Assembly (NCBI RefSeq): GCF_032362555.1
Contig: NC_083509.1
Coordinates: 4,611,001-4,675,000, forward strand
Reading direction: 5' to 3'
Origin: Amyelois transitella
Lineage: Eukaryota; Arthropoda; Insecta; Lepidoptera; Pyralidae
DNA: 64,000 nucleotides
Shown here piece by piece: positions 2,658 through 33,987 of the stretch. Under the pieces are notes generated by a model. That model had not been told where the DNA came from and searched no databases. It worked only from the letters and a program-made list of their open reading frames with translations. Position numbers and translations under genes: made by a program. Position 1 is the stretch's first letter; each line of letters begins with the position of its first letter.

Positions 2658-5600
2658 TCAAAGTCTATGTCCAGCTAATTTGAACATTTTATATTTCTTG
2701 TCTTCTTGGAGTTTATCATGGGAAAATAATCCTAAGTTTCTAGATAAAATATTTACTTTAGGAGATATTTCTGGCATAGCACCCTTGAAAGGTTTAAAAT
2801 CCTTATCTACAGGCGACTTTCCATAAACTTTCACACCAATTTCTTTTTGTGTTTCTATACTGGTGATGGCTTTTTTACGATCAAGGTTGTCGCCAACGTA
2901 TTCATCTGCATTTGAGGCTAAATGTGGGGCGTGTTTACCAAAATGTCGAATAACTGTGTTTGTAGGTACAGATATATTTTCTGTATAAAGTGGAGGTTCT
3001 CCATCAACTCTTTCGTATGTGTTTCGATTTTTACGGTCAATGCAATTATTTATGTTTCGCATATATTCCCTGTCTTGTAAATTTGAATGTGTTTCTATAG
3101 GCATGCCGAGTTCATTCTCAAGAATTTTTATTAAATTATCTAAGTTGTCTGAGGGGGCATCTATGTCCTGCTGACGTTTTTTGCTGATATAAAATGATTC
3201 ATATTCTTGAATTTTACTTTCCAATACAGCAATTTTTTCCTGATCTTTTCTTTTTTGTGCATTGACTTTTTGTGACTGATCTTCTAAAGATAAAATAATA
3301 GTTTCCAGTTGTGATATTTGAACATTAGCTTTGTGTCTTTGGTCTTCTAGAGTAACTATTATTTTTTCGAATTCTGTTATTTGTTGTTTTCTTGTTTCTA
3401 ATGAAGTTATAAGCTTGTCTATTTCTGTATTCTTTTTTACAAGTTGTTGCTTGAGCTACAAATACAAATAAATTAAATAATATTTATTAAGCGCATTAGG
3501 TTCGCTCCGAATCTTTATAGCAAATTTTGTAAAAAAAAATTAAGAAGTACTTAGTAGAACTTACTTCAGAATCGGCGTGAGTTCTTAATTCAAGATTATT
3601 TCGTAACATATTAATGATTTTCGCCTGTTCATCATCTTGACCCGACAGCATCTTTATTATATCATTCTTCTTCTCCAATAGCAAATCTTTTTGCGCAAGG
3701 TTTTCCGTTTGGCGTTCCAATTCCAAATCTTTATTTTGCAAAAGTTGTACCAATTCCTCTTTTTGGCGACTTGCTTCTAGCAATTTTTCCTTTTGTTGAT
3801 TGACCTGTATGTAGTAGGTGATTTATTAAATTTGAGCAGCTATAATACTTACAAATATACTATCACGTCTTTATTCCTGACGGGGTAGACAAATTCAACA
3901 GTCTCGAAATTACTAAAAGGATTCAAATAGTGGCAGGTTGCTATCTAAAACACAGCTACCTAACATTCGTTTTTTAAAATTAGCATCAGATCAAAATATA
4001 AAAAATTAAGGGCCAACAAATATTACCATTTCACATAAATCACTAATATTTTCAAAATCGCCAAAATCTTCTTGTAAACGACTAAGCTGATTTCTTAAAG
4101 CTGCAAGTTGTTCTTCATACGAATTCAGTTTATACTGCCTAATAATGAAAAAAGGGTCATTAATAAATTTAAGAAACAATAAACTGATCTATCTTCTACA
4201 ACTTGATAAAGCACTTATTAACTTACTTGTCACTTATCTGTTGTTCCAATTGTATTTTATTTTGTTGTAATTCCTTAATACATTCTTCTTTGGAGATTAA
4301 ATCACTTTTCAAACTCTCTTGCAAAAGTTGTGATTCGTTATTCATTTGCTAAAAAATATTAAAAAGACCATAGTTACTTTGTTGCACGCAAAAAAATAGT
4401 ATTATCTAGCGAGTTAAATATGTCTTGCGTCAATAAATGCAGAAATACCTCTAATTCCTTTATCCTTTCGTTATATGTCTCAAGCTTGTTATGGTAATCT
4501 TCAATTTCATGTTTCGCAATATGGAGAGCGACTTGTGTAGATTCTAATTCTTCCTGCCAGTTATGAGCATTACCTAAAACATGTAAAGTTTTATTATAAG
4601 TTACAAATTTAATACAAAATAATATGGTGTGGTTCCAGAACTTTAGAATAGGACCACTCTTACTCACTCTCTTAACTAACTACGGCGCTTAGGGAATAGC
4701 CTCATTGATCTGGAACATCTTTTACCAGGATTCACTTTGGGTTTGGTTTCCCTGAAAAGGTCTAAGAGAGAAAAGAACACAGAACCTGAATTTGGAGCAA
4801 ATTCAAAACGCAACCTAGGCTCCCTTACAGAGATGTGAGGATGTAACCGGAATTTACGCAAGGAGTAAGAAGAAGTCATATAAAACCGAGATCTGGTTAA
4901 ACTTATAATTATGTCATTGATACTTACTTGACATTTCTTCATTATCTTGTATCTTTTTCTGTAAGTCTTTGCATTTCAATTCAGATTCAAGCAGCTGAGC
5001 ACATAATGATGATATCTTGTCTTCTAACTTTTTCTTTTCATTAATCTCCAGCTGGTATCTTTCATTCGTCTCAATCAATTTAATCACATTGGTATTCATT
5101 TCACTTTTCAAATTTTCTAGCGATTCATTATAATAAGCGGACAATTCTTCAATACGCTTTTCTAATTGTTCTTTTCTAAAATACAATTATTATCAAGTAA
5201 TGTAAATATTGAACGTATAATTATTTTAGGCTTCTATGATTACCTATAATAATTTAGAAAGGTTAACGATTAACCTCGTGCTGCTTCAGAGAGATGAGGA
5301 CGAATGCCAGGGGGAAATATTATTATATAATTTAGAGGTACATAATTAAATCCATCATTAACCCATACATATGCATTATGACAAAGGAACAGTCGATGGC
5401 CTCACTAACCAAATTTGTCGAATACATTTACACCAATTTAAAAGATCTCAATGGGGACATCGTACCACAATAATATAATATAATAATAAATAATGATAAT
5501 ATATATATACACATAAAATAATATATATTAAAAAAAATCATATCTATAAATATACAAACTCATATATAAATATCATAAACCATTTGCGTCATCACATCAC

Positions 5601-8600
5601 AAAAATATTGGCAACCTGGCTTGTAGATGCATCAAATAGCACACAAACCAGCAAGCTAAAGAAAAATCCATTTTACTCAAAGGAAAAAACAAACCCAACG
5701 TGAAACAAATAAAATAAATAAAAAAAAAAACCATATATATGAACATTTCAGTCTTTTTAAGAATGTACCTGTCTACCTCGTACCTAATGGATAAAGACGT
5801 GATTCTATCTTCTTCGTCTTCCGGCTATACTTCCGGTAGTATCCTCTGGAGTGGAGCCCAGGGTTAGCTCTTCACCATAGATTCTGCATTGGATGCGTCA
5901 GGTTTTTACACGAAGAGACTCCCATCTCACCTCCGTTATCTTTGCAGAGGTTATCTTTTTACCTAACTCGTATTCTCTACTCTCTGAACGTGCAGGTTTC
6001 TTCACGATATTTTCCCTCACCGTTAGAGCATCGGTTAGTAATTAAACTAATGTACATAACTCCTTACTGATTCGACCACCGACGCTCTTAAAGATGTGAT
6101 TCTATGTATGTATTTAATTAAAAGCAAATAAAGATATAATGATAAATGCACTTACTCCGCCTGAAGCTTTCCACGAGCGTCTGCTATATCCTCTAAATGG
6201 GCAGTGTTCTCTTTAATCGATTCTGTCAATTTGCTTAATTCTTTATCAAAATCAGCTTGTACCTTTTGGTTCTGTAGTTAATTGGAATATTTTATGTTTA
6301 ACTGTTTTTGGAAAGTATTTCTAAAGATTTTAAATACAGATTTTACTCTGAATAAATGTGATGTTAATCACAGCAAGACTGTTGAATGAAAACAATAATA
6401 TTCCAAAATATTCACAAAGGTGGCGAAAGTTGAAATCACTTTAAGACATTTTTGAATCTTTGAAAATGGGGTTATTCACTTATTGTTTTTGAGTAATTAC
6501 CTACATATAAATTATGTACCTGCTCGTGCAAGTGCTGTACTTTCCTCTCGAGTGTTCTATTTTGCGCCCGGGATTGCTCTAACGTGGCCTCTAGTTGGGA
6601 CGCCCTTTCTATGTTAATCTTCACCTGGCCCTCCGCTCTTAACAATCTTTCTCTCATCACCATCTTCTTACATTTTTCCTCTTTCAATTCCTTCTCTAAC
6701 TCCTAATAATAAAAAATAAAAAGTTTGTTTCCGAGAACTTTGATACCGAAAATCATGCTTTTATTGTCTGTGAAGATTTCTTATAAAATTTGGAATGGAG
6801 AGCTATTAATTATAATATACTATAACAGAAACATGGCATTTTCGGGGGCAACAGCCTGCCTCTAGCTTTAGCTATTTGCCTAGTAACCAACTTATCTGTG
6901 CAGAATTTTTAGTAGATATGTACCTAGTGATTACGCCAGGTTCATATACGCTGCTCTTAAAATAACTAAATTATTTATTCCATAGATTCTGAATGAGAAA
7001 TAAGTACGGTCGCGTTCATAATTGCAGTCATAGTTCGCAAAACTTTATAGCTTGCACCGCTGCTATCACTCACACATTCATACAAATAACACAATAAACA
7101 ACAAGCGGTGAACCGTTGGGTAACGCGCCATCAAGAAGAGGGTAGTGTAAAAAGTCGACCGCGCAGCGACCGTCGTCCGCTAATCAACACAGCGACACGC
7201 CACACAGCGGAGATCCATGGTGGAACAGTACGAAAATAATGGTTTCATACCGACCAGAATATTTGCGGAACAATTCGACACATCAGTGGTTACTGCTCGT
7301 CGAGTTTGCATCGTGAGGGCTACACCACAGACAGCCAGCAAGAAAGCCGTATTTATCCGAAATAAATAAGCAAAGACGTTTAGAATTTGCTCGGCAGTAT
7401 TTGGATTTTGACTGGAAAAAAGCGATATTTACGGACGAAAAGTTCGTTTATGTCATCACAACACGGTAGGCTTCATTTATGGCGAAGAAATGCAACTCGG
7501 TATGAAGAAAAAATATTGTGCCAAATATGGAGTCTGGACACATATCTGTAAATATGTGGGGCTGGATGAGTGCTGCTGGACCTGGGGAACAGGTGTGGAA
7601 AGCAAGACGCGCTACAGCTGCTCATTATGTGCAAGTGCTGCAAGAAACCATGTTACCAACTGTGCGGTGTATTTATCCGATTGATGATATGCCAACAATA
7701 TCATTTGTGCAAGACAATTGCCCTGTGCATCGAGTCCATATAGTGCGTGAAAGGTTCTGCCAATTTATATTAAAAGTACTAATTACTTGGATAGTATTTT
7801 AAGGACAGCTTCAATATCTTTTCTTTATGAAAACGAATAATTAAGCTGTAACCTTAATAACAGGAGATAAGTGGATAATACAATTAGTGTAATATATCAA
7901 ATATGTATAGCTTTATATAATCATCAATATCTATATGTAATTAAACTATAGGTAGGTAAACTGTTTCAATAAAATTTACTAATTTTAATTATTGAATGTT
8001 TTATTTTGCTCCCTCTTCTTTAATATTTCTTGCTGATTTCCGTGTTTGAAGACACGGGTATTGTAATTCTTAGATATCAGTTAGTTAGTTAGTCAGTCAG
8101 TTACTTAGTTCAAATGGCATCTTGAAACATTAAAAATTGTCAGTAAAAAAACAAAAAATAATCCTTGAATAACTTCGGAATCCAAGTAACGCTAGTAACT
8201 AGTAACAAGCGAGTGTGAGCAAGCGAGATTATCAAATATATCTTAGATCTCACTTGCTCACACGAAGTAATAAAATTGCTACCCAATAACTTTCAAAGGA
8301 ACCACTACCTATGTAAGGGTCGTGTGCAGACAAACTTTCAACCTTATTGAAATGACATAAGTCTTGCAGTCGCAGGCTTCCCTCTATAGGCAAATCTTAT
8401 GCAAATAATGAGAGACGACGATATCTCGATCGACAATTATCGGGGCCAGTTCGGCCATCGTTGATTACCATCTCTTTCTGTTTTGTTATGTTATATGTCA
8501 TAGAATAATAAACTGTTTTCCTTAGTAATCATTAGTATTAAAGACCGTATTCATTTGAAGGAATATTTATTCTTTTTAAATATGCATGTGTGTGTGTATC

Positions 8601-11600
8601 TAGTGGAACCACAGTGCACGCTATTTTAACCCGTAAGAATTTTAAAACTATGACTGCAGATATGAACGCGATCGTACCTACATATAGTTGAGACAAAAAT
8701 ATCGCCATCATTTTCGTTAGGGTTATCTTAGGTTAGACTACTAAAAATGATCTTAATATTTATGTCCACGACTTACTTCGACTCTATATTTATTGTGCTG
8801 AGACTTGAGATGATCGGCAGTTTGTAATTGTTTCCTCAGTTCCTCGTTCTTCGCATTCATCTCCGACAGTGCACAGATCCATTCCTCTGCCCGAAGTTGC
8901 AAAGCTATTGTCTCATTCATGCTTTTCCTGGTATGTAAAAAAAACTTTTTGTTTGTGAAAGTTAAGTATGTAGGTGCGAATATTGATGGTATAGGTACGT
9001 TTTGCCCGCAGCATCATTCTCGCTCACTTTGGCTCGCTAATATTGTCATTTATCGCAATTCCTACGAGAACAATGATTTTCTCGGAATGAGAGGTCACAA
9101 ATAAAAAAAATAATTTCCCATCTAGATAAGATTCGTACTGCTTGCCTAAATACATATATGATTTGGTTTAATGTTTATTATAATGTTTAATTACTTCTTG
9201 TATTTATGAAAATTATGAGTATCTAATGAATACGAATAATAACTAGAACTACTGGTTACGGTAAGTATTTTTCATAAATAATTTATACCTTATGATATCC
9301 ACAATTTCATTGAGTTCATTATAGAACTCAGTTTTTATTTGATTTAAGTTGCAAGAAAGCATCTCATTTTCTGCATTAAACTCGTTCAATTTCTTTGAAA
9401 GTTTGCTCATACTTATACACTGAAAATAATTAAAAATTGTCACCCAAGTCAATGCAGATGTAAAAGTAACTATAATGTTAAGGTGAGTAACGTTACGTTG
9501 AAATATTGTTAAAAATAAACTCACCTTTTCTTGTCTTCTGAGAGTCTCGAACCAATCAATAATTTCTTTTCTCTTTGTCAAAGTCTGTTCACAATTTGTC
9601 ACTAGTTTAGAGGGCAAATTGTATAATTTATTTACATTTAGTAGTGGGGTTTGAGCTAATCGTTGTACGTCTGAAAATATTTAGTAAGATAAAAGTAGAA
9701 GAAATTATTTAGTAGAAATAATTATATTTAAATATCATAATATAATTTTCGCGATCAATTTAGTGCTATTAAGCACTAAATTGATCGCGAAAATGATACG
9801 TTTTTGATTTTTTAAATCTTTCTGTGACGTAGTCGTACACTGTTGCGCGATTAAATAATATACAGTCATATTCGTCAACTCGTTTATCTTTATTTTTAAA
9901 ATTTTAAAATAACACCTAGCTGAATCCTCAGTGGTTGAAGAACATAAACACTATGATAGCGTATTCCTGATTACATTTTCTGCTCCGATATTTCACCTAA
10001 TTTAGATCCCCCAAAGATAATCTATAGTGATTGAACTTGAAAAATCCATTCCAAATAATAGGATTTTAGGAGGGCATTTGAATTGGCTTAATTCACTTGC
10101 CTTGCTCTTGGACCTGTCCATCAGAATTAGCACATAGCTGCAGCAGCTGTCCCGGAGACAAATTGGACACGTTCATGATTCGCAGGTCGTCAGCTGGAGG
10201 CAGTATTGCTTTTTGACCAAACACTGACATCTTTTGGTGGATGTCTCTCAGACATGCGTACACTTCCAAAAGATATCTCTGTTTATGAAAAAAATATACT
10301 TATAATAGGTATTCGGTTCAGTCTATATTAAACCAGCTTACCCGTAGCTTCGCCCGCGCGACCACCTACAAAAAATCGCAAATCACGCGTATTTTTTTTC
10401 TTGGGATGAAAAATACCCTATGTCCTTCTCATAATTACCTTTATATACTTACGCAAAATTTCAAGAATATCGGTTCCGCTGATTGTTTCAATAGTTAACG
10501 CGGGAAGGGACAACAAACATTACTTTCACATTAATATTAATGTAATATTAAATAGTTGAGATTGTCTGTTCAAATTTCATTTATTTTTTAACGGGAACTC
10601 AACTCGAATAGAAACCTAATCCATGGACTAAAATAATTTAAATGATGACTTTCGTATTAGCGACGTAGTAGGTTGTCCTATGTTGAGTTGTAGTTATACG
10701 ATTTAACACTTATTATTCTAAATTTAGATCTATTACTTTGCGTATGAATCAATAACAATCTAGTCTCACTAGATTAATTAGATTGTTATTTATTCATTTG
10801 ATTCACTTAAAATCTAATCTGATTTAAAGTGAATTTTTGTAAAGATTTACCTGTCGTCCCACTAGTTCAGATTTTAACTTCTCAAAATGAATAAGTTTTT
10901 CTTCCCATTTTATTTTTAATTGCATGGCCCTGTCGCTGGGAGATGTTATTGATTCTGAAAATATTTTCATTCTTGGTAACAAATAATAATTTTAAGAAAC
11001 AAACAATATCAATTACAAGCTTATGAATAATATTCAAATACCTAAGTCATCCCCATAACCGAATTCACTTTGACGTACTTCTAACTCTTCACATTTTTTT
11101 ATTGTTTCCTGAAAATCGCATTCTTTAAGTGTCTTCATAAAATAACGAATATATAGATAGTACTGTTATACAGAAATGGGTGATGCTATTATTAATTTAT
11201 ATACCTGGTCTGGAAGGTCATGGGCGTTCTTATTACTTGTCCTTCCATGTGCCTTCTGTAAATATAAATTATTATTACATACATACACGTCACATTATTA
11301 CATACATACAATCACGTCTATATCCCTCGCGGGGTAGACAGAGCCAACAGTCTTGAAAAGACTGAATGGCCACGTTCAGCTGTTTGGCTTTATGATAGAA
11401 TTGACATTCAAATAGTGACAGGTTGTTAGCCTGTCGCCTAAAAGAAGAACCCCAAGTTTATAAGCCTATCCCTTAGTCGCCTTTTACGACATCCACGGGA
11501 ACGAGATGGAGTGGTCTAATTATTTTTTTCTTGGTGCCGGGAACCAAAGCAATTAATAAATTATTATTTATGAATCATAATATCAATATTGAAAATACGT

Positions 11601-13067
11601 TTTAATAAAAGTAAAATAAATCGAACCGCAGCAACGGGAACTGTAATAATTTGTCTGGTCTTGTTTATAACAGTCTCGTTTACTCTTTTTGGTATAGTTG
11701 ACGGTCTCTGAAAGTAACATATTAAAAATGAAACAAAAAAAGCAAAAAAATATGAGCGTTCCCCCGACAAGAAGTCTACGACGATACGAGATTTCTAAAA
11801 AATATTACTTAATACATACTACGGTAGCAAGATTGAGTTTCTTTTATTATTTCTTACTTTTTTAAGGGAACTTTTTGGTCAGTGGTTTTCTTATTTATAT
11901 TTAATTTAATTTTTATTTCATTCTTTTTATAGATATATATTATTCTGTATGTTCTTGAAGCGACTCCTGATATATTTATAGATATTTATAAATATTCATG
12001 CAATAAAACCACAGGATTGCTTGGACACGAATGCCATGTAGGTATTTTCAAGATGCGCGCGCATGGGACGCCGCACCACAGATAAACAAGAAAGAGTTTG
12101 TATAACATTTCATACTTCTTTGAACATATATATCACTCTCGTCTGATCTCTCGTCAAACTTTGCCTGGGAACCTAACTCATGTTGGATCATGATGACAAA
12201 TCCAGCGCGTCAATATGCAGGTTTCCTCACGATGTTTTCCCTCACCATAAGGGCATTGGTTATCACTCAAACAGAAAAGAGTCATTAGCCGAGGTGGGAT
12301 TTGAAGCTGTGGGGGCAAATCAAAAAACACGCATTGCGTGTGTGCGCTTACATTTTAGCTGTGGCATCTTATAACCATTCGATCACCGACGCTCCTAGGA
12401 AAACCTTGATAACATACTTTAATGAAATTGGCCCAATTTCGATGAAATATTAGATCAAGAGATCAGAATTATCACTGGTCGTGGCAGGTGAAATGTTGCC
12501 GGTTTCTAAGTAGGTATGTATGTTTGTAGTATAATAATTGCTTACTTGTAACCTATCCTTTTCGAACCGCATTGTACGATGTGTAACGGCGAGAGGTTGC
12601 CTGCTGACAGTATCATCTTTTGCTCTATTGGCGGACTTCGGGCGTGGAAGCTAAAATAAAAAGCTATATAAATGTTTCATTCTGAAGTTAAATGAAAAAA
12701 ACTGAAAACAATTCAAAGGAAAATATTGAGATAGCATTTCAGATTTTATTGTGGGCGAAATGCTTTATTTATTCAGCCTAAAGTGTCTGCATTTTACACA
12801 CCTTTGCATTTAAGGGCTAACTTTTATCGAACGTAAATTACCTAGGTATCCAGTCTTTCCTTACTTTTATATGGTAGTAATTTTGAAGTCCTAATTTTCC
12901 GCAATAATTTAAGTATCTCTGCGTTGATTTATGAGTACGAGTATGAATTTAGAAACATACCGTATCATTGTTCTGAGTTTTTGTTCTGATGAGCGCTGTT
13001 TTTGTCCTATTCGGTGGAAGCCTTTGTGGTATGCGACATTTGACACCGCCTCTAGACTCTACACTAT
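2658..13067 (-). CDS. coiled-coil protein, paralog A of a three-gene cluster (5' exon not found)
   Basis: Exons in transcript order: 12961-13067, 12546-12650, 11205-11255, 11042-11108, 10851-10954, 10101-10278, 9525-9670, 9289-9419, 8777-8927, 6520-6702, 6156-6271, 4928-5175, 4449-4573, 4227-4348, 4027-4138, 3565-3804, 2658-3455. Frame is open through all 17, giving about 994 codons. A first coding exon ending in phase 1 must lie upstream of 13067. The N-terminal 80 residues are basic (many Arg/Pro/Thr); most of the rest is predicted long coiled coil (heptad-like Leu/Ile with Glu/Lys/Gln). The last exon (798 nt) is much longer than in the paralogs and adds a non-coiled tail of about 170 residues ending KLAGHRL. 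The core aligns exon by exon with C and D. The intron after 10101 has a GC donor, and the 6702-8777 intron holds a Tc1-like element. I do not recognise the family; a structural or cytoskeletal role is inference only. Confidence 0.8.
3866..3945 (+). repeat. fragment of dispersed SINE-like family 1
   Basis: TATCACGTCTTTATTCCTGA, then GGGGTAGACA, and later ATTCAAATAGTGGCAGGTTG, match the fuller copies at 11309, 33058, 43598 and 50548. Diverged and truncated, inside a gene A intron. Confidence 0.5.
5848..6090 (+). repeat. dispersed repeat family 2 (non-LTR tail or SINE-like)
   Basis: It shares TGCAGGTTTCTTCACGAT, TTTTCCCTCACC and a terminal CACCGACGCTC with 12128-12395, in the same order and orientation. 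This motif set is common in lepidopteran repeats. Both copies sit in gene A introns. Confidence 0.45.
7007..8674 (+). mobile_element. degenerate Tc1/mariner-type transposon with terminal inverted repeats
   Basis: The left end (7007-7035) and the reverse complement of the right end (8646-8674) match over about 29 bp with three or four differences; both contain CGCGTTCATA and TGCAGTCATAGTT. Each end is flanked by TA (7005-7006 and 8675-8676), the target duplication expected of this superfamily. The interior carries a broken transposase (see 7217-7770). It lies within the intron of gene A between exons 8777-8927 and 6520-6702, so it should be removed by splicing. Confidence 0.75.
7217..7770 (+). 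pseudogene. Tc1-like transposase, frameshifted and interrupted
   Basis: From the ATG at 7217 the frame reads MVEQYENNGF and an HTH-like stretch ending in TARRV. Later frames give WKKAIFTDEK (containing an Asp of the DDE/D triad), VWGWMSAAGPGE and FVQDNCPVHRV (containing the second Asp). Stops at about 7366 and 7467 and frame changes between these blocks mean no functional protein. The family is Tc1/mariner; the third acidic residue was not located. Confidence 0.7.
9745..9794. repeat. perfect 23-bp inverted repeat with 4-nt loop
   Basis: 9745-9767 is the exact reverse complement of 9772-9794; the loop is ATTA. The arms contain TCGCGATCAATTTAGTGC. The hairpin sits in the gene A intron 9671-10100, the one with the GC donor. 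It could be a miniature foldback element or a precursor-like RNA hairpin. Confidence 0.8.
10338..10510 (-). mobile_element. Helitron-like fragment
   Basis: Reverse orientation: CCCGTAGCTTCGCCCGCGCG near 10342 resembles the 3' GC-rich terminus, followed by the usual body motif ending near AACGCGGGAAGGGACAACAA. Ends are approximate. Located in a gene A intron. Confidence 0.45.
11309..11548 (+). repeat. SINE-like family 1, near full-length
   Basis: Begins with ATCACGTCTATATCCCTCG and GGGGTAGACAGAGCCAACAG, contains AAATAGTGACAGGTTGTTAG and CCCTTAGTCGCCTTTTACGA, and ends with GGTGCCGGGAACCA. At least three other long copies lie in this window, in the same orientation. Confidence 0.7.
12128..12395 (+). 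repeat. dispersed repeat family 2
   Basis: Shares TGCAGGTTTCCTCACGATG, TTTTCCCTCACC and a terminal CACCGACGCTC with the copy at 5848-6090. Lies in the gene A intron between 12546 and 11255. Confidence 0.5.
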
Positions 13068-16817: not shown

Positions 16818-16837
16818 ATTTATTAAGTTTGACTCCA

Positions 16838-17320: not shown

Positions 17321-20300
17321 GTATCGGAGCCCCTCGCCTGCAACCTCGGCCCACCGCAGCGTCGGCCGCGCGCGCTGCTCGCAATGCCACCAACCGCAAC
17401 CTCACACAACAACCCTCCCAGAGGCAATCTCCGGCTAGAAATACTACCTACCCTAAGGTCTGTTGATCCTAATCTATGTACATAAACAAATTGTTTGAAG
17501 CCAAAAGTCAACCAAATGGAAATAATTTTTAAAGCATCTGATATCAAAATTCTTGATATTGGAAATATTAAGAGAACATTAATAAGATGTTTACTTTTAC
17601 GAATTCATAAAGCCAATAAAAAAATCAAATTGTGACAATAATACATTGACCAGAACAAAAAAATAAGTTTGTTATATATACGAGTATTAATAGTCGGGTT
17701 TTCTCAACAGACTAAAATTCCTACTCAGCGCCCTTTGAAATCTGATTCAAAGACTGATGTAAAGGTAACTCATATATTTTTTGTCTTATGACTTATTCTA
17801 TATACTTACAGTAGGTATAAAGGTATATACAGTAGATAATGATAATGTTACAAACTCTTCTTCAGGTATACAATTATTTTTTATTAATTTCAGATAAATC
17901 CGAGTGCAGAAAGTGTGGTTGCTCCTACTTCAGATGTCTTTTCTGTAATTAAAATCCAATCATTTATTTGGCGATACTACCTTATTGCTATTCTTCAATA
18001 GCAAACGAATAATCTATTATCTGTAATTTTAGAATTCACCATCGTTTCAAGACAATACGTATCAAAATGGCCCTGAAACTATAACTGAAAATTCAAGCGA
18101 TATTGACTGTAAAAATATAAATTTGCAGAATTACGACCCTGCTACATTAGGTAAATCACACAATAAGGCAATACTATAATTAGGTACTAGGTGAATTTTT
18201 TCCTCACGTTTTTATTTCTTGTTTTTACAGAGTACTCCCATCATGAAAAAGAGACATTCGGTAAGTAAATTTTAGCTTCAGGCATCTGGTTAGGAATTAA
18301 AGGCATCAAATATATCTACACTAATATTATAAAGAGGAAAACTTTGTTTGTAATGAATAGGCTGAAAAACTACTGGACCGATTTTAAAAATTCTTTCACC
18401 ATTCGAAAGCTACATTATCCACAAGTAACATAGACTATATTTTATTTTGGAAAAAAATAGAGTTCCGTAATATATTTGGATTTTTCGGACACAAACTGAA
18501 AAAAATCAACCAAAAAGTTACTTATTTTGCGTACGCTGCCTAAACTACAAAAGATAGAACCATAAAATGTTTTAATTAATTGTAGATCTTATAAATATCT
18601 ACAAAAAAGTCCGCGACACACTATACCTATCTATGTCGAGTGAGGCACAACAACCACATTTTTATTTAAAAATCTTGAATTTTTTTTGGTCTACATTTAA
18701 ACGCGTTTTTTTTCTCATGCTATTAATCCTTATCAAAATAAATAATTTCATCAATAAGTACAGTTTATGTAGATAATATTTGGTCTTTGAATGATTAAAA
18801 TTGGGCGTTTGGTTTTGAAGTTGTGGTGAAATTAAAATATTACGATTTCTGCTGCACGGCCCGGGACTGCAGGCAGAAGTGACACTTTTGCCGGGAGTAA
18901 GACTTAGTTAGCCGCTTTGCGGGCGGTCCTTTAGTTAGTTCTAATAGAGATATATTTAGTATCGGCTGTGCATCCGTGCGAAGCTGGGGCGGGTCGCTAG
19001 TTTAATAATAAATAGATTAGATACGTAATTTGGGGAGTCTTAGAATTACCTATGTTTATATCACCGTTGAGAATAGCGTCTAGCTTTGCTAACTTTCTTG
19101 TACTATTTTAGGGCCTAGCACGATAAGTCGTCCGCAAACTCCAGTGAAATCTTCTAGCAGACCACAAACTCCAAAGAGCCGGCCCCAAACGCCACGGCCT
19201 TTCAGTCGCCCCACTACGCCGAAACCACAAGCTGGAAGTCGCCCCACCACACCCGCACCACGAACCAATAGCCGCCCTACTACCCCGCGTCTGAATGCTC
19301 CGAGTAACACCAAAACACCCTCAACCACCCTAGCTTCTAATACAAGGGGTTTAACAACATTTACGAATAACCAGACAGCACTTGTAGCAAAAGAGGATGA
19401 TGATATAAAATCGCTATACAATACCAAGCAGAGGCAATTTCATCGCATGAAAAAGGAATTGGACCTTAAGCAGGTAAGTAATGTACATTTTGTGAAATTT
19501 TCCGATGTGCCGAGCAACCGAATTATATTGCTAACTAACGTCTATGAAAGACTTAAGATTGCAATACAATATCTGTCTTAAAGCCACACAAGTTAACAGA
19601 GCTATTAAAAACAATCATAATAAAGCGAAATGCTACAGTAATTCAATTGTAATTTTCAGCAAGCAGTACTAGAATTATTTGAATGTCTTCGTGGTTTGCG
19701 AGAGCGCATGTCGCGCGAGGGTATTGTGTCCGGTGGCGGCGAGAGTTGTCAGCATCAGGAGCTGGTTGTGTTCAACGTGGCTGACTGGGCAGCCGACGAA
19801 GTTGCGCAACTGTGTCGCGACGCTACTGCCTCTTCCATGACCGACGGTGCTCTCGAAATGATCAACACTATTGCACCTATAGGTAAATGAGAAAAGAAGC
19901 ATTTAAGAAATAATTGGCAGGTTAATTTGTTGTTCTGGTTGTGTTGTTGCTTCATTGCATTAACCAAATTGCTTTTGGTGATAAAACAACAAATACGTAG
20001 ATAACTTATTAAGAAACTACTGCTATTGAATTGATATGGGATTACACCTTCCTAATCCAAAATTGATATTTTCTTTAAGTACTCGTTTTGTTTTCATTTT
20101 CATTTTACTACTTTACAAGCCGTGTTTTAAAATTCATTTTTCAGATGAAACCTCTCTAGAAGATTTGGAGGTTAAAGTGTCTAAGGTGCCTGCTCAATTA
20201 GCTGATCTATGTCTTCAGTCATTTACAGCACGTCAAGAACTAATTGACTGGGTTAAAGAACTCATCGACCGAAATGTAAGCAAATTCATCGTAACTTCAT

Positions 20301-23300
20301 TTATGAAATAATTTGATCTGTGATAGAGTTAATGTCTGCTTTTAAATACTTACTAAGACTTAAAATTCAAAGTGATTCAATCGAAAATATTTATCAAAAT
20401 TATTTTAACTCTATTGAAACCCAACAGGATATCGGAAGTAGCGAGGGTATTGAACGAATTGCTCAGTATAATGCTCAGGGGCTTGAGCTATGCGAGGCAC
20501 TACGCGAATATAAGGGCAGAGCAGACATTGCTTTGGACACACTCACACAACTTTCTAAGTACATACTTCATTATTTTCAGTATTCTATTATTTCAATTTG
20601 TAATGTTTCCTTATTTTTGCTTATCTCTCTATCATCTTATTCTCAAATTTATTTTTAATAGGCGGGCAAGTAGAGAGCGGAATATGTTGATTGCAATAGG
20701 TGAGTCCCTGGTTCGCGAGATTGCACGTTTGCGTCAAGATCTAGAATCTCGTGCAATTATTGTCAGTGAAATGCGTGAAATTAGAGCTGAAACTGATACT
20801 GCCAAATCTTTAGAGGTAAGTTGCGATGAATTTTGTATTTCTTTTTAGTACTTAATACCTATTTCTTTTTTTGTCAGTACTTTCTACATCGCAATTTTAA
20901 TGTCATCAGGAAGTACGTCGCGAGTTGGATGAAGAACGAGCTGCGAAGCAAGTAATGAAAGAAAAGCTTGCAAACTCCGAGTCACAACTCCGTCAACTTC
21001 GCATTCGTGTCACCAAAATGGACCGCCAATTACGTGAATCGGAGGCCAGCATCTCTAGCCTTACCGGGACTGTTAAAACTTTGGAAGATCAGGTAAGGAA
21101 TAATTTTTTTTATTAAATTTACTATGAAATATGATTTTAATTTAAAACGAAACTTTATTTTAGAGTCGGCAACGTGAGGTTCAACTTGAGGCTCGTGCAA
21201 GAAAACTTAAAGAATCGCTGAAGACAGGTGAACTAGCTAGTAGTCAAATAGCGCATCAACGAGATTCACTTCAAACAGAGTGCGTATATTTTTTATTTTA
21301 AGAAATGTTTTTTTTTTATAATATCGTAGAACACTAATCAATTCAGTTTTATTTTTCAGGATAGCGGAACTTAAAGAACAAATTGAAAATATGACGGCTC
21401 AACACAAATCGGCTGTACAAGAATTAAAGGAACAACTCAAAGCTATGAAACAAGCTTTAGAGGAACAGAAAAGCTTAACGCAAGCTGAAGTAGAGCAAAA
21501 AGAAGCTATTCATAGAGCTCTTGAAGAAAAAGATAGTGCTATAGAAGAATTAAAAGCTAAAATAACTGAACTAGAGGAAAAAATACCTCATCCAGGCACG
21601 AGTGTAGATGGTTTATATCTGTTTTATTCCTAATTGTTAGAACTGACACTCACATTATTTGAATGTTTTAGATTTACCAACTGAAAGAGAAATGGACTTA
21701 TGGGCGGAACTTCAAGCTACCAAAGACACGTTGAGAATCGCAGAAGAGGAAGTGGCTGCTTGTAAACGCGAAAAAGTAAAATTTTTGGAAACTCTTACGA
21801 AAATAACGGTAATGTCATTCTTATTTTTATATAAGTATTTTTAGATCTCTCATTTTTGTACTTTTTTTTTCCTTTCAGTCTCACATACCTGATGTATTTT
21901 TTACTTCGTCGGAAAGGTAATAGTAACTGACACTAGTAAACCCTGTTTCGCAGGAGTCCGAGAACAAAGTTGGCATGCAACAAAAATTGGCTGCTGAGTT
22001 ATTGAGTAAAGAAGAAATAATAGCTAAGATGCAGATTCAGACACGGGAACTGACAAAAAATATAAAACTGAAGTAATTATAGCTGATGCTTATTTAATTA
22101 TAATTCTATTGCTATTGATTATGGATAACACTAAAGAAATAAAACTATTTTTTGTAGTGAACAAAAGGTCATTCAATATGAACAATATGTTCATGATCTA
22201 CAGGCACACAATAAATCAATGGTGAAAACTCAGGATGGTAATGCAAGCTACCAAGAATTACAACAAGAGGTATATTCACTAAAATTATAGTTTTATTTTT
22301 GGTAAAAAGAATCTTTGTAACTGAAAGCAAAACTTTTATTAGATAATGAAGCTGAGAATGGGTCTTCTAGAAGCGGTTCATCAAAAAGAGGAATTAAATG
22401 AAATGCTAATGCAAAAGGAACAACAACTAGAAGAACAAGACAAGACATCACGTGCCCAGGCAAGATTTATAAAGGTTACTTTATCCTTCATAGTATCCGA
22501 TGTACTGACATTCTTTATAGTTCTTATTTTTACTTGTCCAAATTCCATTTAACTATTGCTGATAAAAGTGAACCACGACTTTAACTTGAAGGATTGTACA
22601 GGTCCGTGAAGAGCTCATCAATATGCTGAAGAATAAGGAAACTGAACAGAGTCGAGAGTTGACTGCACTCCAACAAGACCTTGAACATCGAATGAAAATT
22701 GTAGATGAAGTGAGATAGGACCCTTTTTTTTGTTCTATTATTTATTTTTTATAAATTAACAAGTACATTTATCGCTCTCAAAATGAACGAAAGACACACT
22801 GAGATGAAAATCTTATCGACATTGTATTTCTAGTTGTAATCACCGGTGTTTATCTCAGACAGCGCAGACCATACCGTGGAACGATTTCACAAGTTTGTCG
22901 GTTGGCATTTAGATGAACAAGTTTCCTGATTTTTAACAACTATAAAATCCACGAGAAATGATGGATGATCTAAATGATCTAAAAAGAAAACTTTTTCTAT
23001 TTATTATAAAAAGCAGGTAAGTACTTCATGAAATTAATGAGTGAACTTTTCTAGGTCAATAAACAAATAGCCGCGAAAGCCGACGAGATACAAGAGCTGT
23101 TCACCACATTGGAGAACAAGCAGCAGCAGATTCACCGATTGGAAAAGATCGTACTGGCATTGGAGGAGCAACAGCGACGTGCGCAGGCGCAACGGACGAG
23201 GCACGAGGAGAAAATTGCCGCACTCGAACACGAACTCGCAGCGGGTGGGAATCGACGAGAACGGTAAAAAGTTTAAGAACAAAAAGAATATTTATTTGAA

Positions 23301-23611: not shown

Positions 23612-23629
23612 AAGAAATTAGCTACGAAC

Positions 23630-23635
23630 AATAAA
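23630..23635 (+). terminator. poly(A) signal for gene C
   Basis: AATAAA 19 nt after the TGA (23609-23611) of the last exon of gene C. Confidence 0.55.
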
Positions 23636-24035: not shown

Positions 24036-24118
24036 CTAACAGCTGAACGTGGCCTGTCAGTCTTTCAAGATTACTGGCTCTGTCTACCCCGCAAGGGGTA
24101 ATATAGATGTGATTATAT
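24036..24118 (-). repeat. SINE-like family 1, 5' fragment
   Basis: Reverse complement of the family head: CTGTCTACCCCGCAAGGGG and AGCTGAACGTGGCC are present. Confidence 0.6.
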
Positions 24119-24209
24119 GAATGAATGAACAATTTTTTATTAGTATTTTCTTAAATTCTTAAAAATTTTAAATTCTTAAATATTTATATATAAAATAGAA
24201 ATATTATAT

Positions 24210-24740
24210 ACTAGCTGTTGCCCACGACTTCGTCCGCGTAAATTTCGAGTTGAATCTAAAAATAAAATAATTTTAATACAAAAAAAATATCTTGTTTTTG
24301 TTTGGGCTCGAACTTGGACCGCCAAAGACGCACCAACCACTGGACCATTGAGGCCGCTGCGGTGGTGTCGAAATTAAAGTAAACAAATAAACCAAAAATC
24401 TTTTTACGTGAGAATCACGCATGTTATATGCGGCAAAATCAGGATATTATCAAACTGATTTTCACTTATATTTATTTATGTTATAGTTATAATGCTGTCG
24501 TACAATGATAAATAACTTTGAATTTTAAATTTCCTTACTTATTTGCAGGCAACCTCATGCATTGAGTTCATTGAAATGACGATAACTTTTTTTTTAGTGA
24601 ACCGATTTTGGTGAAACAAACTTTAAATGTTTTTCTGAGTTAAAAAAAGCAATTGGTGAAAGTTTGAAGTAAATCGGTTCAGTACTTTCGGAAATAAGCG
24701 TGATCATATCAGACAGAAAGACAGAGACAAAAAATTAAAA
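24210..24740 (-). mobile_element. Helitron-like element with embedded tRNA-like segment
   Basis: ACTAGCTGTTGCCCACGACT at the left is the reverse of the family 3' end. At 24300-24365 the minus strand carries TGGTCCAGTGGTTGG and AGTTCGAGCCC, which resemble pol III A and B boxes. The right boundary is uncertain. Confidence 0.5.
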
Positions 24741-25667
24741 AAAAAAATTTGCTTTCTATTATTCATTCTAAGTGTATCCTCTATCCATTTCAGTCAAAAA
24801 TAATAAATGTACAGACAAAATATTTTTACTGTATAATTACTGCTTTTTGCATGAGAATGAAGGTGAGTGGGTGTATATCCAGCGTTTTTAAGCTGGTGTG
24901 TAAAGATTCAGGTATGATTTCTGTAGAAGATATCACGATAGGGACTATTTTTACTGTATCTACACGCCACTGACTTTTAAGTTCTATAGCAAGGTCTGTA
25001 TATTTTTTCTGTTTGAGTAGATGAGAGATTGTGTGTGTTTGGGATTGCTACATCCATTAAATATACTTTATAAAGTGTAATGTCCGGTATATTATAATGT
25101 CTGTTAGTATGGTCCTGTTTCCAATACCTACAGCTACAGCACTCAGGGGAATCCAGAATTACTTGAGGTTTGTATTTATGGTAAGCAATTTGTGTAATCA
25201 GGGATAATGATTGATGAATGGCTGCAACCTTATTAATATTAAAACGTGATCATTAAAACGATAGAAGGAGAAAAATAAACATGGACTTATTTTCACATTT
25301 TTAACCTACAAAATTTAACAAAACTTAATCAGTGTAAAGAAGTAATTGTTTAGCCGCTTATTAACATTACACGATTTTGTCTTATTACCGATGATTAGCT
25401 GAAAAAAACGATTTTAAAAATTAACTGTTTTAAAAATAAACTATCAAAACGCTCGCCATTTGATAGCAGAGACTTTTCGACCGACCATGAATAAGTACTC
25501 GTTTCTTGTGTCTTTAGTGTATTAGTGACTGAACGAAAAGTTGAAAAACATTTAAGTATGTAAACCATGTTACGTTAACAGGCGGCTAAAGGGGCATCTT
25601 GTTCGTAAATGCAGCTTCGTAGAAATTGTAAACAATTTAAGTTCTTCGTATTTGATTTGAATATTTT

Positions 25668-28600
25668 TTAGAAAGGCCAACTCAAATTTTTCTTCGATGA
25701 GCAATGCTCTGCTGATGATGTGTGGTGCGTTCTCAAGACCTCCCTCTCTAAGATTGCTCTGCGGCGTTCCAGTTGCGTGCGCACGCGGTCTTCTCTTTCT
25801 AGCTGGAGACTCTGTGCGAGCACAGCGCTCTCTAGGCGGAGCACCCGGGTTCGCTCGGCCTGCAGAGCTGTCCAAGTCTCCGCAGCGTTTGCACACATTG
25901 ATGACAACGATCGAGACACCTGCATAAGAAAATAACCAGTTTAAGAAAATATCAGTAACATTTAGAAATACCTAATCACATTTTCTAAAAATCGATTAGC
26001 GCATCTTGGATCTAATCTAGCTAAAGCTCCGAACTCTGAATGATTACTATACGATAAAACTGAACATAGAATCCCAACATGCGAGAATATTTTTTGTCAA
26101 CCCTATTCTGTAAAAAATAAATAAATACCAAATTATGTACAAAAATTAATATATATATATATTAAAGTATATCAATTTATATAAATATGTATGTCGGTCA
26201 CTAGGTCGATGGCAATAAAGCCTACCTCTGCATGACAACTGCCATCTAACGACGATGGTTCGGAGGCGTTTCCCTCGACCAGCGAGCTGAGGTCCCGCCT
26301 AGCCTTTAGGATTCTGGCGAACAGCGAGGCAGCCCGCTCGTGTCTCTCCAACATCAGCGCTCTTGAAGCTGCCGCCGTCACTAGTGCGTTACGCTCGCGC
26401 GATAGAGAGTCCACTTGCATGTGTAAGTCCAATAGCTGTCACACAAAAACTATTATTGACACTAGTGTACACCCGCAGCTCCGCCCGCGTTATCTCCCCC
26501 TAGAATACACAATCCAAATTCCAAGTCTCTAAACCCAGCGGTTTAGGCGGTGCGTGCGGTAATTTATCTGAATAGTCTTCAAACAGTCTATAATATAGTA
26601 TAATATAGTAGATGATGAAGATGTACAAAATTAGATTAATTTAATTTAAGTTATTTTAAACTATAACGTTTACTACTTACATTTAAAATTTGTAACATTT
26701 GGGCAATTCGATGGACTGCGAAAATTAAACCAATCCACAAATCAGAAAGATTAATTGAACAATCATGCAAGTCGGCGCTTGCCTGCGACAACGTCTGACC
26801 GCTAGACAAACAAGGTACCAAACAAAAAAGGTTGTACCTATGTTCCGCTAATATCAAATGCAAATCGTTAAAAAATATATGTCATAGGAATAACAATTTT
26901 AAAGTACCTATCAGTGATTTAAATTTTGCTACTAAAATGTTAGTAACCTATACACGAAAATTTTAATTAATTTAAAACTATTATATTATTAACACTTAAG
27001 ATTTTAATTTAGCAACATTTTCTACGAAAAAATAATAAGCAGTTAAAAAAAGCTTATTTTAAAAAAATTACTAAAAGATTATGTCTGTTATTTTTTTATG
27101 CCGCTAAGCCCACCTCTATCTGTTGTTGTCCTTTATATTAAGAAACAACATTTCCCAACTAAACAAACAATAAATAATATTTATGTCTTACTTCTGTCTG
27201 CAATTCTTGGAAGGGAATTTCTTTTGAATAACAATTATAATTTCTTAAGCGTTTGACCTCGAGCCGAAGAGATGTCAGTTGTTTTTCATAATGAGATGCA
27301 TTTTGTTGCCTGAAATGAAAATATTAAAATAAATTAAATTAACGAAATGGTTCAATGATTTTTAAAGTTAAAGGGATTTTATGACTGCCATTCCGAATTA
27401 CGACAGTCATCTATTCAGAAAGAGTCCTTTTTTTTCAATTTAATTCTCCTTTTATATATAATAGTTTAGTTTAACTCAAAAATTTTCGTTTATTTTCCTT
27501 TTCTAACTCAAATCAGTAATCATTTAACTGAAAAAACTTACATTACTTGTTCATTTTCCTTCAGCTGTTGAATTATATTCTGTAATTTAGAAATTTTCTT
27601 TTCTCGCTCTAAAAGCTCCGCAGCCATTTTATCCTGAAGTGAGTCGTCCACTTCCCCTTGCTAAAATAATAAGCAGTTTTAAAAAAAAGTAGGAAGTAAC
27701 AATCTTAAGAAGACTTATATAAGTTTTAGAATTTATACATACCGCAATTTTATTTAACGAATTGAAAAAGTTATCTTTGTCAGCTCTACATTGCTTAAGC
27801 TCATCTTCAGTGCGCGCTAAAGCTTGTCTAGTATATTGGAGTTCAGTCCAAATTTCTGTTTCTCTATCAGTGGGCTCCGACTCTTTAAAATAATTGTAGA
27901 ACAGTTAATTGTTTTCTGAAAGACTAAAATAAAAAACAATGACTTCTAATATATATTTACCTATAGACGGCAGAAACTCTACACAACGATTCCGTTCAAT
28001 GTCAACTAGTTTAGCTGATCGTTCACGATATATTTGTAACTGATTTTCTAATTCCTTTATACGAGTTTCATATTGTGGCATTCGACTCTCCGCTGCTAAC
28101 CTGTTTCTTTCCTAGAAAAGTCATATTCAATACTAAGTATTATCAAATAACCGTGAATATACTCGTATTTGGTTTATTTAAATACCGCAATTTCATACTA
28201 CCTCTGACTACATAAACACAAGTAGTACCAATAATAGTACTACTAATACATTACCTTAAATTATTTAAAATCACCAACACCTGAGATACACCTGAGAGAC
28301 CCATAAAAAAAGATGATCCAGACTTAAAAGTGTATCTATTTACATAAATCTATATAGAAATGAGAACATCGCATTATTAGCGTTGTATGGTTGTTTGAGA
28401 TCGCATTCGCACCTGCTCAGCCACCTTGGCCGCCAGAGAGTCGATCCGCGCCCGCTGTTCCGCCTCCCGCGTCGCCGCCGCCTTCTCCGCCAGGTCCCCT
28501 TGCTCGCGCAGTTCCTTCACCCTTAAAAGGTTTCGGATGTCTTTTAACTTCCAGAACTCTTGGTATAAAAATGAAACAAAAATAAATTTAAAAAACCTAA

Positions 28601-31600
28601 GCTCGAGAGCGTCACGCTGGCGAGACAAAGCCTCGATCGTCATTTCCCCAGTTTTCGACATCTCGATCAACTTCCTTGACCGGGCGTCGTAACTGGTCTC
28701 TCGATGGCGGTACTGCAAAAAAATTGTAAAGGACTTTAAATAATTATTTACATTAAATATATTAACACATCTTTTTAAGAACTATTCACGCATTTGAGTT
28801 TCTTAAAAACCTGCTCACAAAAATAATAATTCAATCCATAATTTTTTTGTTTCTATCCAGCCAAGTTACTTAACCTTCATTATATACGAAACTTTGAGAA
28901 CAGACTTAAATTGACCATGATTTCTATTATCTCCAAATGTCTTTTGGAATAAACTCTTACTCAACAATAGAGTCATGTTAGAAATGCGAGACTACCACTT
29001 TTTCTCTAAACAAAATGGAACAAGCAACGAAATACAGTAATGCGATTTCAGAATTCGATTGATCGGATTCAGATCGCAATGAAGATTGTCACTTCACTGC
29101 CTTCTGGGATTGATGTGCGTGACTGTTTACGAGTTGCTCGAGGTCTTTGTGCTTGCGGCGCGCTGCCTCCAAGTCTGCGCGCGTCTCTTTCAGCTGCCGC
29201 TCCAACGTGGCAATGCGCCCGCGCGCCACACGCAGCATGCTTTCGGCGGCCGCGACCACCTCCTTCAGTGACTCCCGCGCATTGCGCTCCTTTGTCAACT
29301 CGTCGTTCAGTTTCTGATCCAACGAAACAAAATTGCAAATAATTTTTATTTTTAAACTAACCAATTTATTTAAGCAAGCCCAAATCGAAAGATTATTTAC
29401 AGTATGATAGGTAAATGTATTAACAGTAACTAATTTTGGAAATATTACCCAAAGATTTGAACTTATTACTTTCTCCATTTTTGTTGACAACCGTGAAAAC
29501 GCCAACAAGGTTTTCTATTATTCTTCCACTTTAGAGTAATCTAATAGGTTAAATATCTACAATTATATATATATATATCATTATCTATAAGTATAAACAT
29601 ATATATCCAACAGTGGCAAATATGGTTAATAATATAATTACTTGATAACTAAGTCCTTCAGAAAGATGATCTTTAGTCCCATCAGTGGTCTCTTTTCTGT
29701 TGACGTCTTCCAGTCTATGCTGTAGCACTAAATTCTCTTTTTGCAGTCGATCTATTTTCTTTATCATCGTCTCGCGATCTAACCAAGGGATCCTTAATAA
29801 AAATAAAAGTAAAAGATATAAATATATTTAACAATAAGTCATGCTCTACTTTTTCCTGGTTTGGCTAGCAGTTTATGTTAGTGATGTGAAAGGCACATTT
29901 TCTTTGTAATTTAAGATTAGATTCCACCGTGAACCAACATATTAATTACTCGTCACTGAAAAACAGTTACATATATATAAAATACAAAAAAAAAAACATA
30001 ATACTTACTTAGCCAAGTCTATACAGTAATTAACTTTTGACTTCAAATTTTCAGCGATTCCTGCCAGTAATCTGTGAAGTTTTTCGGTTTCAGCATCCCA
30101 TTCAGCATTTTTTGCATTCTGCAAGGCAATCAATTTCTGTTTGTGTTTTTTAATACTATCAATTTTAATAATAGCTTAGCTTCTTAATAAAAGTGTAGCT
30201 ACTACTGCTGAAGAAGAAGAAGAAGAGAACGTCAGAAAGCTTGATCTTACGAGTACAATTATATACGAACATTACGGTACTTGGCTCGTATAACATTGAG
30301 AAGCTCAATTCGTCGCGCCATCAACTCTGCACCCACTCCTAACACCTCTTCAGGAATTTGATTCAATTGTGCATTCAACTGCTGTAAAATCTGTAGACCT
30401 GCAACAGAACATACATTTTAAACCGTTTAAAATCTATAGCATAAAGTTTAGCATAAGATCCAAAAAAGGGAACATTTCTACTTTTTAAACTCAAAGTCTG
30501 TTACAGTTCCATCGTATCATTTATAACATCGTTCATCTTTGCAGTTGTTCTTCCGGGAGAGAATCTCGTTTATCTTGTCCTTATTTCTTATGATAAAAAA
30601 GGTGTAGGCAACCTTCTTACCAAGGCCTCCATGCGCCTCCATTGTTTGGGAATTATTTTACCAAAAACAGTTGTTAGATAGTTTTTTTCTTCTCGTCACG
30701 CTTTTTTACTACACATGAGAAAAATTTACTAAATAAGTTTTACTTTCAGAATCCAAAAATCAAAGCTACGTACTAAAAAGGCCGTTGATATCCGGATTAA
30801 GTGGAAGGTCCAAGTCTTCTCGTATCAACAGCAGCAGGTCATGCGGAGGCCAACCCGTCACCGACACCACCCGGACTTCACCCAGAGTCTCATCTTTAGT
30901 CCCCAGACGCATCTCCATCTCCCTCAACGAAGCATAGAGTTCTAGCACAACGTTCTGGAATGCAATATACTCGTAGCTTAAATATCTAAGGGATGTGGTA
31001 TATTTTATAATTACGTGTTATTTTTTACTTCTTGATAAAGCAATGTAATAAGTTTTACGAAAAATAATTTACAGAGGCGTTCTGCTTCCCCGGGAAAGAG
31101 ACGTGATAATATGGATACATATTTTTTCCTCGGTGACGTAACTAATTGCAACTATTGTTACTGAGATATTTGTATCTTTCCTTCAAATACAAATCAGAAA
31201 GGGCCGACATGTCAACATCATAAAAGCCCTCCTAAAAATAAGAATTAAACAAAACTTTTGTTATAATATATAAAATATTTATGTGTACATACTTGCTGTG
31301 GAATTAACATTTTCTTTTGCTTAAGAAACTCTCGTTTCTTTGTAGCTACCGATCTCATCAGTTTTCCTGCCATTGCATGTATTGACGCCTTTTCTGCAAA
31401 ATTCCAAAATTATATTTGAAAATTACTTTCAACTGATTGTCATCTAGATATAACACGAAGATATTCTATTATTACCCACACCAAGGTTCTCCGCTTAACC
31501 CAATGGTAGACTGTTAGATAATGCTATTAGCATTAAGTCCGCCTATTGTACTTTACAAATTGTAATTGTTACAATAAAGAATAAATAAATAAATAAAATA

Positions 31601-33987
31601 TTCTCACCGGCACTATACAATATTTTGCACAAACCTTGGTCGAGACAAGATGCGTCGCTCATTATGCTATGAGTTTCTGGTGCAGATACACTCGATTCAG
31701 CCAACGCCATCTTATCTATTGATTTTCTTGGTGTTTCCTAAATTTGAAGAAAGTTTAATACACTGGCACTGAATGATGGTTTTGAGAGTTAAAATTAGTC
31801 AGTAAAAGAACAACTTAACAATCAACCTATAATAAGGAGAAAAGAGAAAAAATAAAAAGGCCCTATTATCTTCATTTTGGTTTGGGTTTAGTATGATAAC
31901 CCAATTAACCTCCACAAATGCTTTGACCGTTATATCAACAACCTCAGAATATTGATAACAAATACTGTCCTCGAATGAAGGTTTTCATTGTCGCCAGATA
32001 CGTGCATTTCATAGAGACCTTCCTGAATTATTCAAAAAATGTAGTAAAAAAATTTACCATTGATGGAGATAAGCTTTGACATCTTCTATCGCCAATAGTC
32101 CTTCCGCCAGGGCTCTAGAATGATAATGGTGAGCTTAAATACGTATATTTATTTAACCGGTTCCCAAATACATCTTTTGTATCAGTTAAGGCAGTACGTA
32201 ACACATGTCAAAAAAAAACAAAATGAATCATGATTTAAGATGCAGTTCTTAGAACACTGCGGGCGTGCGGAATGATTCTGGATGGTTATCTGAATGCAAT
32301 CAAAATACCATGTAATGTATACATATTACATGCGAAACAAAATAGCCGCATCTTAATTTCCACCAGATATATTATTTAATAAGATATACTTATAAAATAA
32401 TATATACTTCCTGGACTATAATTTTCCTAGTTCTAGTAGATCTAGATAGAGACTATCTAATGCACTTTATAGATTTTAAGTATTTAAAATCAGTATATCT
32501 TAGAATACATACCGGTGTTCTATTGATTGGGGGGTTCACTGAATGAGCCCTCTTGTTTAAGTTTGGCCGAACTCGCTTTTTCAATGGGGGTGCAGTGTCC
32601 GGTCCTAGACATCAGTTTTAAAGTTATATTATTCGGCATTTTTTGTTCAGTATATAATAGATATAATAAAAACGTTAATCTCTAAACCCAAATAACATTT
32701 TACTGTCGTCCTCGTTTTTATAATTTTCGGTTTCATTCATCTAACTGTCGACGAACTTATATTAAAATAGTGCGTGGAGGACGTGGATAAAGCAAAAAAA
32801 AATATGTAGAGATCCCGAAAAGTGGAAAGATTAAGACTCTGCCTGCCTGCCCGAGAGACGTGATCATGATCATAAGTGTTTATGTATTTTAAGTTATTTT
32901 CTTTGTATTCGTCGTTCTTCTGCTTGACCACAGCTCAAGTTAGGATGTTGTTCCGGTGCTCTAGGCTAGTGCTTACATTACGACATTTTAATACGATATA
33001 GAGGACTATTAGTGCAACTAGCTATATTTAATAAAATTACATACATACATACATATGATCACGTCTATATCCCTTGCGGGGTAGACAGAGCCAACAGTCT
33101 TGAAAAGACTGAATGGCCACGTTCAGCTATTTGGCTTAATGATAGAACCGAGATTCAAATAGTGACAGGTTGCTAGCCCATCGCCTAAAGGAGGAATCCT
33201 AAGTTTATAAGCCTATCCCTTAGTCGCCTTTTACGACATCCATGGGAAAGAGATGGAGTGGTCCTATTCTTTTTTGTAATAGTGCCGGGAACCACACGGC
33301 ACTAATAAAATTAGATTTAGGTATATCAAGAGCATGAACACCGTTGCGTCCGGACAAAGTAAAGTGTTTTTCCACTTGGATTATTGGTTATCATGGCCCC
33401 GCTCCCTTTATTGGCTGATATGATAAAAATAAGATTACCGCTAAACAGGTCACTATTATTACCACAGTAAAATTCTTCTTACTTACACACATCACCGACC
33501 ACATACTGTTTCACTTTAAAGATGACAAACATTACAAAGCCTTAAATAAAGAATTACATATCATCCATCAACATCCACCTCAGTTTGGTCGACTCGAAAG
33601 GTTCGACTGACAGGGAATGCCTTTTGGCATTAAGTCCACTTGTACATTTTACGTGCATAAAGTGTAAATTAATAAATAAATAAAATATCAGCTTTTGCTT
33701 GCGAAATTTCGAGGTACTCTTGACAATAAGTAGAGTTCTTAGTGACATGAAAGTGAAACATATAACAGTTTTTCTATAATAAAAACCGCATCATATGAAA
33801 ATAAGTCTTTTATAATAGTTTATTTACATTTTACATTTTGATATCTATGTGGCGCTCAAAAAGCCTCGATCCCAGATAATTATAAGAATACCTATCCTTT
33901 AAGAACGTGTAATGTACAGACAAACTTAGGCTTACCAGAACGACCAGTAGGCTGCCGTGTGGCAGGCATCAGCCCAGATCTCAACAT
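25668..33987 (-). CDS. coiled-coil protein, paralog D of the three-gene cluster (complete)
   Basis: Exons in transcript order: 33936-33987, 32513-32604, 32058-32114, 31608-31737, 31293-31393, 30774-30954, 30271-30398, 30009-30118, 29642-29792, 29131-29313, 28597-28712, 28413-28521, 27961-28111, 27743-27882, 27542-27660, 27192-27309, 26226-26435, 25668-25919. They sum to 2400 nt, so 799 aa, with frame intact throughout. The start is the ATG at 33985-33987 (MLRSGLMPATRQPTGRS). Residues 1-120 are basic and rich in Ser/Thr-Pro (RTPSPGG, SLSPSMETPRKS). From about residue 140 to the end the protein is mostly coiled coil with no membrane segment or signal peptide. It shares short blocks such as AAELLxxE and LWAEL/IWTEL with C. 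Exon 30271-30398 uses a weak donor (GTTCGT) that is fixed by homology with C. Family unknown to me; role not assigned. Confidence 0.85.
31482..31598 (+). repeat. non-LTR/SINE 3' tail, family 3
   Basis: GTTCTCCG, CCAATGGTAGACTG, GCATTAAGTCCGCCTATTG and a terminal (ATAA)n tail. Related to 33573-33690 and 16838-16925. Lies in a gene D intron. Confidence 0.5.
33058..33306 (+). repeat. SINE-like family 1, full-length copy
   Basis: Reads from ATCACGTCTATATCCCTTGC to GTGCCGGGAACCACACGGCA. This is the best-preserved copy in the window and can serve as the reference. Lies in the first intron of gene D. Confidence 0.75.
33573..33690 (+). repeat. non-LTR/SINE 3' tail, family 3
   Basis: TGCCTTTTGGCATTAAGTCC followed by a TGTACATTTT block and an (ATAA)n tail, as in 31482-31598. 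Confidence 0.5.

Follow-up and report, generated by a model that had tools for sequence, protein, structure and literature searches.

Three neighbouring genes of Amyelois transitella share intron positions and common descent and probably encode long coiled-coil scaffolds

Three neighbouring genes, here called A, C and D, occupy much of the first half of a 64,000-nucleotide stretch (hereafter the window) at positions 4611001-4675000 of contig C5 of the Amyelois transitella genome and raise two questions: whether they descend from a single gene, and what kind of protein they encode. The original prediction, made from the sequence alone, described them as paralogous coiled-coil genes with matching exon architecture. 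The limits that it gave were correct, as 2658 is the stop codon of A and 33987 is the ATG of D.

We assembled the exon chains manually, working from stop-to-stop frames and splice sites and already knowing the exon lengths of the original prediction. Gene A (2658..13067, - strand) was modelled with 18 exons and 1015 codons (13067-12961, 12650-12546, 11707-11642, 11255-11205, 11108-11042, 10954-10851, 10278-10101, 9670-9525, 9419-9289, 8927-8777, 6702-6520, 6271-6156, 5175-4928, 4573-4449, 4348-4227, 4138-4027, 3804-3565, and 3455-2658, which ends in the stop). Gene C (18033..23267, + strand) has 15 modelled exons and 829 codons (18033-18150, which is tentative, 19112-19473, 19660-19882, 20145-20275, 20428-20558, 20662-20815, 20910-21092, 21164-21279, 21360-21610, 21672-21808, 21954-22072, 22158-22269, 22343-22474, 22602-22709, and 23055-23267 with the stop). 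Gene D (25668..33987, - strand) has 17 modelled exons and 777 codons (33987-33936 with the ATG, 32604-32513, 31737-31635, 31393-31293, 30954-30774, 30398-30271, 30136-30009, 29792-29642, 29313-29131, 28712-28597, 28521-28413, 28111-27961, 27882-27743, 27660-27542, 27309-27192, 26435-26226, and 25919-25668 with the stop). Exon modelling did not find the first coding exon of A or of C. Each final model contains one terminal stop, while the alternative frames contain 51 to 99 stops (85 and 99 for A, 62 and 71 for C, 59 and 51 for D).

All introns in the final models are GT-AG, bar one GC donor in A; because exon ends were chosen by hand as GT/GC-AG sites in an open frame, these splice-site counts are true by construction and are not independent evidence. 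The GC donor (AAG/GCAAGT) seems to be used by the A exon at 10101-10278 (- strand), which carries the shared N-terminal region, and the donor of the A exon at 11707-11642 is weak (ACA/GTTCCC). At least four D boundaries (donors 30271, 29131 and 28597; acceptor 30136) were chosen by reference to the sister genes. A possible additional D exon of 102 bp (26681..26782, - strand, phase 0/0) leaves the frame open whether or not it is included; it was dropped from the final model because the 210-nt exon of D aligns to the 240-nt exon of A without it. The earlier D model, which was used for the first shuffle test, the partial-model Pfam scan, the PDB phmmer and profile searches and the window tblastn, included this exon.

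Several other features were noted in the window. A YJU2/Saf4 splicing-factor gene (231-1998, - strand; outer limits read from frames) adjoins gene A, with Pfam Saf4_Yju2 matches in frames 1656-1904 and 634-1020. An intron of gene A holds an element with similar inverted ends (about 7000-8680), whose inner frames resemble, we presume, mariner transposase; the one frame of it that was scanned (7506-7799) has no Pfam match. At higher coordinates than gene D lie zinc transporter exons (42942-46619, + strand), where three frames match Cation_efflux and ZT_dimer (the match at 44024 is under the curated cut-off), a likely transposase whose open frame contains a DDE_1 endonuclease domain (47836-48843, - strand), and one or more spondin-like genes (54117-58546, - strand) with Spond_N, spondin-type TSP1 (under cut-off) and Kunitz domains. 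Positions 1-114 are a piece of a dispersed repeat, found at no fewer than 39 other genomic places at 91-96% identity and at one at 86%.

The three proteins are 25.8% (A-C), 27.4% (C-D) and 20.1% (A-D) identical. Identity of only 20-27% implies that the duplications are old or that the genes evolve fast. We compared whole-protein local alignment scores with those of 300 shuffles per pair that preserve heptad position and local composition. The observed scores were 623 (A-C), 292 (A-D) and 626 (C-D), against best shuffle scores of 276, 204 and 207, so that none of the 300 shuffles reached the observed value in any pair (z = 23.7, 10.0 and 24.3, respectively). The same test on the earlier models gave z = 21.6 (A-C), 11.5 (A-D) and 34.1 (C-D). 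Because the similarity exceeds that of heptad-preserving shuffles, it reflects homology and not coiled-coil composition. The N-terminal region alone gave z = 15.5 (A-C), 9.4 (A-D) and 4.8 (C-D); its observed score was equalled by none of 500 shuffles in A-C and A-D and by one in C-D, where the similarity in this region is accordingly weak. When ten shared exon blocks were compared singly, a test that omitted the last exon and the 178/223/181 exon, z was at least 2 in 25 of 30 comparisons. Block r1 (the 151/154/151 exon) failed in every pair, with z of 0.2-1.3, and the other two failures are block n3 in C-D (1.2) and block r4 in A-D (-0.1). One residue in the similarity that had been quoted for the three genes needs correcting: gene A reads KLLEASRQKEELV, not MLEASRQKEELV.

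The exon lengths first reported for A, C and D were all reproduced (151/154/151, 183/183/183, 116/116/116, 248/251/(109+151), 125/137/140, 122/119/119, 112/112/118 and 240/(132+108)/210), as was the agreement of intron phases along this run. The 183- and 116-nt exons are identical in size in the three genes and the 151/154/151 exon is nearly so. Gene C has one additional intron inside its counterpart of the 240-nt exon. In gene D the counterpart of the 248-nt exon is split by one additional intron, and that of the 240-nt exon measures 210 nt. Gene A ends in a longer exon than its sisters and has more exons modelled on its N-terminal side. Homology extends further upstream than had been noted, as three additional introns are shared: the two that flank the 178/223/181 exons and the one that follows the 146/131/128 exons (one exact, two within 12 columns). 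In a protein alignment blind to introns, nine introns occupy an identical column in A, C and D alike and agree in phase, and 12 have the same phase and lie no more than 12 columns apart. Random intron placement (20,000 trials) gave a mean of 0.0013 coincidences and a maximum of 1, compared with the nine observed. Two of these nine use the sister-guided D donors 29131 and 28597 and seven are free of such choice; the A-C pair alone shares the same nine introns exactly.

Could the resemblance nonetheless be an artefact of coiled-coil composition and hand-chosen exon ends? The low identity, the five dissimilar blocks and the hand-picking of ends, in D partly in view of the sisters, would fit such an artefact. 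It is, however, already contradicted by the shuffle tests, in which no shuffle matched the whole-protein score of any pair, and by the coincidence of intron columns on the intron-blind alignment, most of which holds without any sister-guided D end; its probability is next to negligible. Collinear similarity beyond composition, together with shared intron positions and phases, strongly supports the paralogy originally proposed; with the open frames, these findings show that A, C and D share a common descent.

No fourth copy was detected in the window by tblastn with the A, C and D proteins (E<=1): all 17 rows outside the exons of the query itself overlap modelled exons of a sister gene. Across the genome (327 Mb, 33 contigs), four of the five matches to the N-terminal part of C are C itself and the fifth is at chance level (E 3.09), while five of the six matches to the N-terminal part of A are A itself (sixth, E 0.92). 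These genome searches also missed the sisters within the window, so there may be more paralogues.

The -,+,- order of the genes fits local duplication with inversion, as had been suggested. Two such duplications of one intron-rich gene would account for A, C and D. Gene C is closest to both of the others and has probably departed least from the ancestral form. Genes commonly evolve in this way, by local duplication followed by divergence of the ends.

Basic, S/T-P-rich N-termini had been ascribed to C and D. The basic character holds, with a pI over the first 100 modelled residues of 10.6 in both (that of C includes the tentative exon) and 11.8 in A. The S/T-P part holds for C in the form of a repeat: the exon at 19112..19473 (+ strand) encodes a basic N-terminal tail in which the RPxTP motif occurs six times, compared with a shuffle mean of 0.05 and a maximum of 2. 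A plain S/T-P count does not bear it out in either gene, as residues 1-130 of C contain 8 sites against 6.4 in shuffles (p = 0.28) and D has only 2. The [ST]x[IL]P motif in a basic disordered region is that of EB-binding microtubule plus-end proteins; such an SxIP-like motif is not conserved here, occurring in A only, with a chance of about 15% in shuffles.

Structure was predicted for single exons, one in A and one in C. The last exon of A (2658..3455, - strand) is predicted to form a single helix over residues 2-98, with block pLDDT of 95-98 over the first 90 residues in this single-sequence prediction, followed by a tail with pLDDT below 50 from residue 142 that is predicted to be unstructured. 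The 74-residue piece encoded by the C exon of the shared N-terminal region (19660..19882, + strand) is predicted with low to moderate confidence (mean pLDDT 61.9) to form helices at 2-20 and 45-57 around a loop. When the proteins were divided into half-overlapping segments, heptad periodicity was significant (p<0.05) in 10 of 35 for A, 7 of 28 for C and 5 of 26 for D; most segments were not significant, and this patchiness means that a continuous two-stranded coil is not demonstrated. The rods of C and D probably have a break, marked by proline, near PTERE/PTDRE.

Scaffolds bound to microtubules or centrosomes are often built as a long helical rod preceded by a basic tail. To judge from their sequences, A, C and D are most likely long coiled-coil scaffolds whose N-terminus is basic and probably disordered, and are perhaps located at microtubules or centrosomes. 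They resemble long coiled-coil cytoskeletal and centrosomal scaffolds in the basic N-terminal tail, the long helical rod and the variable ends, but differ in having no Pfam family above cut-off and no significant solved homologue. Each protein would form an elongated coiled-coil rod, helical over most of its length, and would dimerise in register, since the 183- and 116-nt exons keep their exact length in the three genes at 21-45% identity. An acidic surface, most plausibly that of microtubules, would be the target of the basic tail, while partners would be held by the rod and the C-terminus; specialisation of the copies would have taken place at their ends, and they may pair with one another. 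The patchy heptad periodicity, and the fact that the sole end-binding motif is in A and near chance, count against a microtubule or centrosome role. We put the probability of the overall account, two local duplications with inversion giving rise to coiled-coil rods with basic, microtubule-binding tails, at about one half.

The original prediction could not name the family, and Pfam-A, the PDB and literature searched by topic still supply no name. None of the three proteins reaches a Pfam-A gathering cut-off, either as partial models lacking first exons or as final models. Weak matches (E 0.0009 to 0.02) to DUF745 and Pox_A_type_inc in D, and to Lectin_N, PAS_6, DUF1664 and UPF0242 in C, cover short stretches of the rod, are all under curated cut-offs and in no case are common to two of the proteins; A has no Pfam-A match, even a weak one. 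A phmmer search of the PDB, with C lacking its tentative first exon and D including the later-dropped 102-nt exon, gave no match at E<=1 for either protein. For A it gave two (E 0.22 and 0.23), both sequence versions of ATR-interacting protein; the likeness covers one stretch of about 100 residues, is not significant, is found in A only and reads as generic coiled coil. A search of the PDB with an A/C/D profile gave 41 matches at E<=10, none significant, the best of which (0.012) is a coiled-coil fragment. The excerpts of literature retrieved by topic contained no family name, and such topic searches cannot find a family of unknown name. The proteins thus match no named family in Pfam-A or the PDB, and 'unnamed' holds for those libraries alone.

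It is possible, if somewhat unlikely, that the three are homologous proteins acting in meiosis or sperm, in the synaptonemal complex, the axoneme or a flagellar accessory structure, and that their divergence is that of fast-evolving reproductive genes. Identity as low as 20-27% between neighbouring copies with open frames would agree with this, as would the unmet Pfam cut-offs and the lack of significant PDB matches; yet the PDB holds many axonemal chains, and solved axonemal chains are absent from the matches of A, C and D. A role as a membrane-traffic tether or Golgi coiled-coil protein is unlikely: a long helical rod whose ends diverge would fit it, but no Pfam trafficking domain passes its cut-off and the strongly basic N-termini would better suit microtubule association. 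The holocentric spindle and dimorphic sperm are lepidopteran traits, and we regard it as quite unlikely that A, C and D form an undescribed insect scaffold family, perhaps restricted to Lepidoptera, whose three copies hetero-oligomerise on such a lineage-specific structure.

At present, the A/C/D cluster is a well-supported yet ordinary case of local duplication and divergence. If its orthologues prove to be restricted or fast-evolving, the cluster would present one rod in three natural versions that keep much of its length constant and leave the ends free to vary, and would be suited to asking how coiled-coil scaffolds specialise.
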